DNA from: Prochlorococcus marinus str. MIT 1013
GTDB lineage: Bacteria; Cyanobacteriota; Cyanobacteriia; PCC-6307; Cyanobiaceae
Assembly (NCBI RefSeq): GCF_027359395.1
Contig: NZ_CP114778.1
Coordinates: 1,550,001 to 1,614,000 of the forward strand
DNA: 64,000 nt
Direction of reading: 5' to 3'
Shown here: positions 8,322 through 17,971 of the stretch, piece by piece
Layout of the letters: every line of letters begins with the position of its first letter
Numbering within the stretch: the stretch's first letter is position 1
Program-made: the position numbers and the translations under genes
Notes under the pieces: generated by a model
The model's database searches: none
What the model saw: only the letters and a program-made list of their open reading frames with translations
Told to the model about the DNA's origin: nothing

Positions 8322-8663
8322 CTCATCATACTCCCGTCTATTATTTTGATTTTATATTTCATCTTGTTGATTGAAGTTTTAATATTATAATTATTTTTCA
8401 TGTTTTACAGTAAAGCTTATCCAGTATCTTTATAAAATGATTTGAAGTATTTAATTTTTATATCTTCGAAAGTTGCCGAATTTTATGTTAAACATTAAAG
8501 TTGTAATTTTATAAAGTTCTAACATATTTTTCTCTATATTCCATTGATTCAAAAAGATTCTCGTATTCTTTACATATAGTGAAATCTTTTTTTATTCGGA
8601 AAATGTTACCTAATTTACTGATTTGGTTCATTTTTTAGCTATTGTCTTAATATGTTTATCTTT
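8322..8663. other. AT-rich intergenic region, about 340 bp
   Basis: Nothing supported. It should include the promoter for the small transcription unit that begins near 8660. Confidence 0.35.
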
Positions 8664-8675
8664 AGGAGGTGATCC
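8664..8675 (+). promoter_or_regulatory. Extended perfect Shine-Dalgarno sequence
   Basis: AGGAGGTGATCC is complementary to the whole anti-Shine-Dalgarno tail of bacterial 16S rRNA. It ends one base before a TTG; the AGGAGG core is seven bases from it, an ideal spacing. Such a long match is unusual in this window, where most genes have none. Confidence 0.7.
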
Positions 8676-8676
8676 A

Positions 8677-8778
8677 TTGTCGCATCTACCAATCGGTCAA
8701 GAGTCAATGGTAATGAGAAAACTATTTTATTCTATTGCTCCTGCCTTGAAGGGTTTTATAATTAATAGATTTATATAG
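8677..8778 (+). CDS. Small ORF (33 aa) with strong ribosome site and its own terminator
   Basis: A TTG codon behind the perfect Shine-Dalgarno site opens a 33-codon frame beginning MSHLPIGQESMVMRKLFYSI and ending in a hydrophobic and basic tail (APALKGFIINRFI). It is followed 23 bases later by a strong intrinsic terminator. The unit thus has a translation signal, a frame and an end, which is good evidence for an expressed peptide, although the product matches nothing I know. A regulatory RNA containing this frame is an alternative. Confidence 0.55.
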   Translation: MSHLPIGQESMVMRKLFYSIAPALKGFIINRFI

Positions 8779-8801
8779 TGGTATCTATCTATTAATTTTT
8801 T

Positions 8802-8831
8802 AGCCAGTTACATAGTAACTGGCTTTTTTTA
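8802..8831 (+). terminator. Strong intrinsic terminator
   Basis: A perfect ten-pair stem AGCCAGTTAC / GTAACTGGCT around an ATA loop, followed by a run of Ts. It ends the small unit at 8677. Confidence 0.9.
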
Positions 8832-8947
8832 TTCTTTTTTTCCGATCTTTCTTGAAATGATCGTTTTTCTAGCATCACATTTTATTATCTATTGATATAT
8901 CTTTCTAAATCGTTATTCTTAAGGTATAGAAGTCATTTTTTATTTCG

Positions 8948-9106
8948 ATGTCTAATGAAGAAAAGATTGAAGTAGCCGAACAAAGGATAATCGAGTTGAA
9001 GACCTTAATCAATCACTGGAAGACAAGTAACATCTCATCAAGAAAATCTACTGTAGATTTTGTGGAAGCCATTCTATCTGAAAGACAAAAGCCGACTGCA
9101 GCTTAA
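8948..9106 (+). CDS. Small soluble hypothetical protein (52 aa)
   Basis: ATG at 8948 opens MSNEEKIEVAEQRIIELKTL and continues to RQKPTAA and TAA. It is a charged, predicted helical protein; the first 20 residues could form a short coiled coil. Codon use looks coding and there is no competing frame. Function unknown. It lies after the terminator at 8802, so it has its own promoter. Confidence 0.6.
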   Translation: MSNEEKIEVAEQRIIELKTLINHWKTSNISSRKSTVDFVEAILSERQKPTAA

Positions 9107-17620: not shown

Positions 17621-17643
17621 TAAAAGGACGCCTTCCAGCGTCC
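17621..17643 (-). terminator. Terminator of the tmRNA precursor
   Basis: On the minus strand GGACGC and GCGTCC form a six-pair stem with a six-base loop, followed by TTTTA. Confidence 0.75.
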
Positions 17644-17693
17644 ATGGATCAATTGGGTAATAAGGCTGATCTGACCCCATCTCCGTTAAAGAA

Positions 17694-17744
17694 TCAAGCA
17701 GCAACAGGGGCTGTTTGACGGGAGAAACTAACGATGTTGTTAGC
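17694..17744 (-). other. ssrA: tmRNA proteolysis tag reading frame
   Basis: From the GCT resume codon the frame reads ANNIVSFSRQTAPVAA and TGA. Prochlorococcus tags of this length ending in APVAA are known; the terminal AA targets tagged proteins to Clp proteases. Confidence 0.92.
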
Positions 17745-17971
17745 AGTTATGGTTTTGCTCTGACCGAGCAGGCTTCAGTCACTCTCCTGATACCCCGTCG
17801 AAGCCATTGCAGCCCCATTACATGGAGCTGAGCGGAATCGAACCGCTGTCCGAGATACTGGTGTGAATCACCTAGTCCATTGGAAATAGACAAATATATT
17901 CTGACAGATATTTGGGAATAATCGATTAGTGTTTAAAGAAGTTTTCGATAGTTTTTAATAACTTAAAAATA

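Follow-up and report, generated by a model that had tools for sequence, protein, structure and literature searches.

We analysed a window of 64,000 nucleotides, positions 1,550,001-1,614,000 of the 2.05 Mb single-contig genome of Prochlorococcus marinus str. MIT 1013. Positions 8664-8830 of its + strand hold a compact unit, which consists of an extended Shine-Dalgarno (SD) sequence, a 33-codon frame with a TTG start, a stop-codon hairpin and an intrinsic terminator. The SD, AGGAGGTGATCC (8664-8675), is complementary to the 3′ end of 16S rRNA, and a single nucleotide, A8676, separates it from the TTG at 8677-8679. The frame (8677-8778, +) ends with TAG at 8776-8778 and specifies the 33 aa peptide MSHLPIGQESMVMRKLFYSIAPALKGFIINRFI, whose C-terminal module GFIINRFI* (8752-8778) appears to be the part kept as protein. 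A stem formed by AATTAATAGAT (8760-8770) and ATCTATTAATT (8787-8797) covers the last codons and the stop. The terminator has the arms GCCAGTTAC (8803-8811) and GTAACTGGC (8815-8823), separated by a short loop and followed by a T-run (8824-8830). Two further pairings on this strand, both putative, would involve the start region: a hairpin CCATTG/CAATGG at the start codon (8674-8679 with 8705-8710), and a long-range pairing of GGAG in the SD (8665-8668) with an in-frame CTCC (8738-8741). The first-pass annotation had described a 12-base SD matching the anti-SD, a 33-codon TTG frame and a terminator, all of which we confirmed at 8664-8830; the stop-codon hairpin was absent from its description.

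The block upstream of the SD (8580-8663, +) is conserved in the window's type and presumably contains the promoter and a short 5′ UTR. In 26 low-light sequences of this type conservation starts ~80 nt upstream of the SD: mean identity, 0.51 further upstream, is 0.77 in the 60-nt row preceding the SD and 0.90 in the row that spans it. Past the terminator conservation drops, and it partly returns at the next small frame. This is a 52-aa frame, MSNEEKIEVAEQ... (8948-9106, +), which gave no Pfam or NCBIfam match; within the clade of the window its start region shows conservation. At the high-light loci conservation covers the entire flank, and an upstream boundary is therefore not visible. Inspection by eye revealed a TTACC...TTACY direct repeat in the block 8580-8663, a possible regulator site.

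An extended Shine-Dalgarno sequence

The SD version GGAGGTGATCC occurs twice in the 2.05 Mb genome, once in the unit and once as the reverse complement of the 16S 3′ end; base composition predicts 0.18 occurrences. An origin of AGGAGGTGATCC as a 16S artefact was rejected, because Rfam detected no rRNA anywhere in the window and the 16S end maps to another place in the genome. Scanning the window for the SD yielded one exact match and six matches with at most two mismatches, compared with 2.45 expected. Six of 100 shuffles reached that number, so the window mismatch scan alone is weak. The longest run matching the complement of the anti-SD is 13 nt at the element and at most 6 nt at the 48 window ORFs of at least 120 aa, as estimated by a rough scan of mechanically found ORFs, limited to the window.

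Only the GGAGG of the SD stands at normal spacing, 7 nt from the TTG. A full SD duplex of 11-12 bp would stop 1 nt 5′ of the start codon, which should be tight for a codon in the P-site; for this reason TGATCC may be retained at least partly for RNA structure.

Since the set of 142 sequences had been chosen by the SD pattern, conservation of the SD was judged on loci located by HMM or BLASTN. Of 54 distinct HMM-located frames ending in G..IN(R/K)FI*, 51 carried the SD and an in-frame TTG, with the SD in the versions GGAGGTGATCC (37 frames), GGAGGTGATTC (12), GGGGGTGATCC (1) and GGAGGTGATCT (1); the exceptions are separate 26-aa frames. SD and TTG were present in all 44 frames located by BLASTN with the unit. 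The first base of the SD is variable in relatives and the next 11 are conserved. The 16S 3′ end was identical in all ten genomes tested, which included carriers of each SD variant, so each variant seen still pairs, via G·U.

A related arrangement in Staphylococcus aureus, an SD-rich species, is described in PMC13009471: there a structure shows the SD-aSD helix extended toward a non-AUG start by two added pairs. The present unit is like it in having SD-aSD complementarity extended toward a non-AUG start, but here the complementarity amounts to 11-12 nt, and no other gene in the genome has the 11-mer at its start.

Distribution, forms and surroundings

A peptide HMM found matches in 120 of 400 genomes of the family, belonging to 16 of 59 genera; five of the 120 (G050, G053, G066, G081 and G223) had partial matches only. 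BLASTN with the unit (E ≤ 0.001) detected it in 48 of 197 relatives, in a few of them as short pieces. Within the genus, BLASTN matched 30 of 41 genomes, the window's own included, and most of the 11 without a match are incomplete. Of 200 genomes from the order, 69 contained a DNA pattern searched with at most one mismatch; each had a single match, and together they represent 7 of 29 genera. The 69 include one decayed copy (G104), and no genome of at least 2.1 Mb among the 200 had a match. In genus g18, which we take to be the high-light type, the pattern was found in 51 of 58 genomes and was without match in seven. Among the matches listed, 115 of 118 are labelled Prochlorococcus and three are 'Synechococcaceae' single cells. 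The carriers searched had one match per genome, with one exception. A phage origin was rejected, as none of 50,697 phage records matched and the exact pattern was not found in viral contigs. Sought in other genomes, the unit thus proved to keep its frame, SD and start across many Prochlorococcus genomes; the absence of frame and SD from relatives, which had been named at the outset as the outcome that would speak against it, did not occur.

The peptide exists in two main forms. The low-light form, to which the window's copy belongs, has 33 aa (MS(H/Y)LPIGQESM...PALKGFIINRFI; 48 distinct versions), and the high-light form has 40 aa (MSYLPKNAVIKGAVNS...LIKKKGFIINRFI; 96 distinct versions). Rarer versions of 30, 32, 35 and 39 aa retain both ends.

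In some genomes the two ends are separate. A 26-aa ATG frame of the ML...SLLKxKGFIINRFI type, which lacks the SD module and shares only KGFIINRFI* with the fused gene, is present in four genomes (L241 in G081, L242 in G053, L243 in G223, L260 in G066); a weaker fifth match, in G083 (E 5e-4), is a candidate for the same type. The 5′ module without the conserved C-terminus occurs in three genomes as frames of 26-30 aa ending LAPAF... (L044, L045, L046), and G066 carries both the tail-less module and the 26-aa form. With these stand-alone modules, nature has in effect dissected the gene. Truncation at 26 aa is seen in one high-light copy (L126), and the decayed copy in G104 (L244, about 1905-1975) has kept AGGAGGTGATCCATTG with a frame of 18 codons. 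The tail-less, truncated and decayed copies indicate that some lineages can do without the fused form. Two histories are conceivable: a start module may have become attached to a small protein that existed before, or the fused gene may have been split. In L044 and L045 we also observed a CAGGAG/CTCCTG stem followed by a T-run within the frame, which could terminate transcription before the stop codon.

Neighbouring ORFs of at least 60 aa were surveyed at selected loci, 14 of them high-light and the rest low-light, some represented by ~3 kb. All 14 high-light loci have an upstream SDR gene on the same strand, with its end about 105-135 nt before the SD; the next clustered ORF of at least 60 aa downstream lies on the opposite strand. 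The neighbours are different at the low-light loci. Four of these, the window among them, have in common a gene that lies downstream on the same strand, and in the window this gene has a DUF4912 match. The differing neighbours argue that the unit stands alone and is not the leader of one constant gene. From one lineage to another the surroundings differ, yet frame, SD and start are retained, and the proposal that the unit is self-contained is thereby supported.

Codon-level selection and conserved pairing

Codon conservation was tabulated for 48 low-light and 96 high-light sequences out of 151 distinct frames; the seven of other lengths or ends were omitted. Codons 1-2 (TTG, TCG) do not vary, and codons 3-5 hardly do: the exceptions are CAT/TAT and the third position in codon 5. 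In the high-light form, codons 12-27 show a pN/pS of 2.45 with a pS of only 0.047, and the changes fall mainly on first and second positions. Codons 12-20 of the low-light form evolve fast (pN 0.39, pS 0.46), and codon 12 has G as its first base in 46 of 48 sequences while encoding E, G, V or A, in keeping with the putative start-codon hairpin. At the C-terminal end the last 8-13 codons vary almost only synonymously: pN/pS is 0.05 for codons 28-32 and 0.01 for codons 33-40 of the high-light form, and 0.12 for codons 26-33 of the low-light form. These opposite patterns indicate that the end, GFIINRFI*, is constrained as protein and the middle as RNA, most clearly in the high-light form. Overall, constraint of the RNA kind covers the 5′ two thirds.

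The near-synonymous change of the last 8-13 codons points to a translated product. The idea that the unit is purely an RNA that titrates ribosomes is accordingly not supported, whereas the alternative offered beside it, a peptide-coding unit, gains support from the conservation of frame, SD and start across Prochlorococcus genomes. Start, frame and stop are conserved, and selection is seen at the protein level, as expected for a small protein. The last sense codons are also kept as nucleotides: ATA is found in 144 of 144 and TTT in 143 of 144 sequences, although codon choice for Phe and Ile varies elsewhere in these peptides. The stop codon is TAG in all 48 low-light sequences; in the 96 high-light sequences it is TAA in 94 and TAG in two. 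The end of the frame (8770-8778) reads TTTATATAG, or TTTATATAA in most high-light forms, with near-invariant nucleotides.

The fold of 8652-8830 has a free energy of -49.2 kcal/mol (z -4.1), and none of 200 shuffles was as good. The 5′ 129 nt alone gave a z of only -0.9, with 43 of 200 shuffles as good, which means that the stability comes mostly from the 3′ hairpin and the terminator. The 5′ parts of two high-light forms (z -1.5 and -1.9) were not unusually stable either.

Pairing was examined further by comparing sequences; the structure scripts covered 46 of the 48 low-light and 95 of the 96 high-light sequences, and pairs were counted in the 46 low-light and in 52 hand-picked high-light sequences, one of which is the 39-aa form. 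In the 46 low-light sequences the terminator is paired in 97.0% of cells, with double changes at all six tested pairs. The nine-pair core of the stop-codon hairpin is paired in 97.3% of cells; at one of its pairs a double change has turned A-U into G-C in 15 sequences. The CCATTG/CAATGG helix (98.2% paired cells) had no double changes, and the GGAG/CTCC pairing (98.4%) had one-sided changes only. Both are absent from the minimum-energy fold of the window, which prefers other pairings there. Lacking double changes, the start-region and SD-CTCC helices of the low-light form are plausible, not proven. When the low-light sequences were shuffled, with relatedness ignored, eight of 500 shuffles reached the number of double-changed pairs and none reached any of the other four measures.

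The high-light form contains an in-frame 12-pair hairpin in codons 11-24, paired in 98.6% of cells over the 52 sequences. Two of its pairs alternate between A-U and G-U and one between G-C and G-U, and these changes replace amino acids. None of 500 shuffles, again ignoring relatedness, reached any of five measures for the whole high-light structure, and slid versions scored far lower. A strong terminator within the high-light frame is not claimed, because in MED4 the hairpin is followed by an interrupted T-run. The earlier suggestion that the unit hides a regulatory element is borne out in part, namely by the conserved pairings within the coding region.

Proposed function and relation to known elements

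Sequence comparison identifies the feature as a conserved gene for a small protein, whose start is structured and SD-rich, and we infer its translation from the selection acting on it. We regard it as a new family of microproteins, built in an unusual way. We favour the reading, with a probability of roughly 0.6, that the unit is a monocistronic microprotein gene of Prochlorococcus and close kin whose start is gated by RNA. Its own promoter would give an RNA of roughly 180-200 nt, on which the strong SD would load ribosomes onto a start region able to fold. In the low-light form this region might pair with codons 3-5, with codons 10-12 or with the in-frame CTCC; in the high-light form the folding would be the 12-pair hairpin in codons 11-24. 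RNA folding could then gate translation from the weak TTG, in a genome where most genes have no clear SD. The middle of the frame would serve as RNA element and spacer. As for the peptide itself, its C-terminal tail, which is short, basic and hydrophobic, may be the active part and would probably bind a partner (a protein, a membrane surface or the ribosome); binding via the conserved tail is our most economical guess. Prochlorococcus belongs to the most abundant photosynthetic organisms, and both regulators and clear SDs are scarce in it. A gene that combines three selection regimes in 33-40 codons with an 11-nt SD unmatched at the other gene starts of its genome offers a clean test case for translation gating in these cells, and for what overlooked small proteins do.

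Several other readings draw on the same features. Translation might also begin in frame at codon 11 of the low-light or codon 14 of the high-light form, which would give peptides of 23-27 aa and make the part from the TTG a regulatory extension. Codon 11 (8707-8709 in the window) is ATG in 41, GTG in 4, TTG in 2 and ATA in 1 of 48 low-light sequences, codon 14 is GTG in 95 and ATG in 1 of 96 high-light sequences, an AAGAG/AGGAG-like stretch lies, as judged by eye, 3 nt before the internal codon, and the separate 26-aa ATG frames of four genomes have the same end. The spacing to the SD-like stretch is short, however, and a conserved hydrophobic residue would look similar, so we regard such a double start as conceivable but doubtful. 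Dual-function RNAs, of which SgrS/SgrT and RNAIII are examples, would account for the RNA-level constraint over most of the frame, the hairpin across the stop codon and the stable 3′ end, with the RNA regulating in trans and the peptide as second product. The constrained parts can be explained as structure of the start and coding regions, though; besides SD, hairpin and terminator no conserved stretch was seen by eye outside the frame, and the stretch from stop to terminator differs between low-light and high-light forms. This makes regulation in trans by the RNA unlikely. The mRNAs of type I toxins (AapA, BsrG and similar) are likewise short and structured, with a strong SD and a tiny peptide. 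A small membrane-active peptide silenced by a postulated antisense RNA would agree with peptides that are small, basic and rather hydrophobic (the 33 aa peptide has a GRAVY of 0.53 and a net charge of +3), and with the possible in-frame anti-SD pairing. The peptide shows no strong transmembrane segment (best 15-residue mean 1.25), and one match per genome with broad conservation, without a match in the phage records or of the exact pattern in viral contigs, is not the pattern of a mobile toxin; a toxin of this type is distinctly unlikely.

The arrest and leader peptides TnaC and SpeFL have a C-terminus conserved up to the stop codon and a variable N-terminal part, and the present peptide resembles them in both respects. 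The small frame with strong SD, terminator and stop-codon hairpin, and the same-strand small frame 8948-9106 that follows in the window's clade, would also suit a leader or attenuator of a downstream gene. In contrast to TnaC and SpeFL, the unit has no constant downstream gene: the low-light contexts differ, and the opposite strand of the next ORF at all 14 examined high-light loci contradicts the idea there, which leaves a leader function very improbable. That an accidental SD-like word precedes an accidental frame could be entertained on the window mismatch scan, weak by itself; with HMM matches in 120 of 400 family genomes, and with frame, SD, start and end preserved, chance is refuted for practical purposes. 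A more speculative reading, to which we attach little weight, is a stand-alone ribosome-sensing gene: its folded start would be loaded through the near-complete complement of the anti-SD, and KGFIINRF-I(AUA)-stop would act on the terminating ribosome, thereby reporting or controlling initiation, the supply of Ile-tRNA(AUA) or termination in trans, and not by way of an adjacent gene. The near-invariant TTT ATA and the retention of the 5′ module without the C-terminus in three genomes would agree with it.

Neither the 33-aa nor the 40-aa peptide matched any Pfam or NCBIfam family at E ≤ 1. In the literature we found no recognisable description of the gene; supplementary tables and most subscription papers were outside the scope, and a listing there as a new ORF is possible. 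The available parts of PMC1242208, PMC2518516, PMC2864571, PMC2897979, PMC3898218, PMC7368042, PMC5607370, PMC5126843 and PMC13009471 do not describe it. Norf1 and Norf4, microproteins of Synechocystis compared here by description only, are similar in being small proteins missed by annotation; homologues are lacking in marine picocyanobacteria according to PMC5126843.

Because of its 33-aa frame, Yfr6 was the first candidate for identity with the unit. Yfr6 of strains MED4 and SS120 is a short transcription unit with a 33-aa frame and a terminator, as given in PMC1242208 and PMC2518516, and both are thus short Prochlorococcus units in which a conserved 33-aa frame is followed by a terminator. 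The identity was rejected by locus, riboswitch and peptide. Yfr6 is 244 nt long, carries a Glutamine-II riboswitch and encodes the unrelated peptide MTLIYRGQKY...; in MED4 it lies at c627729-627972, coordinates at which it also turned up in the genome taken here as MED4, and the present element lies at about 662,000, with its start codon at 662,008. Glutamine-II (RF01704) was absent from the window at the gathering threshold and from 8400-9000 at E ≤ 10, and as a control MED4 yfr6 matched it with 64.7 bits. BLASTP at E ≤ 100 gave no alignment of the Yfr6 peptide with the MED4 or the window peptide. Other Yfr RNAs were rejected as well: none of yfr1-yfr7 (Table 2 of PMC1242208) and none of the MED4 RNAs in the rows seen of Table 1 of PMC2518516 covers MED4 position 662,000. 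Around the locus no Rfam family reached its gathering score, and 13 sub-threshold matches were all far below theirs. Elsewhere in the window, cyanobacterial tmRNA (RF01851) was identified at 17627-17907 on the - strand with 302 bits.
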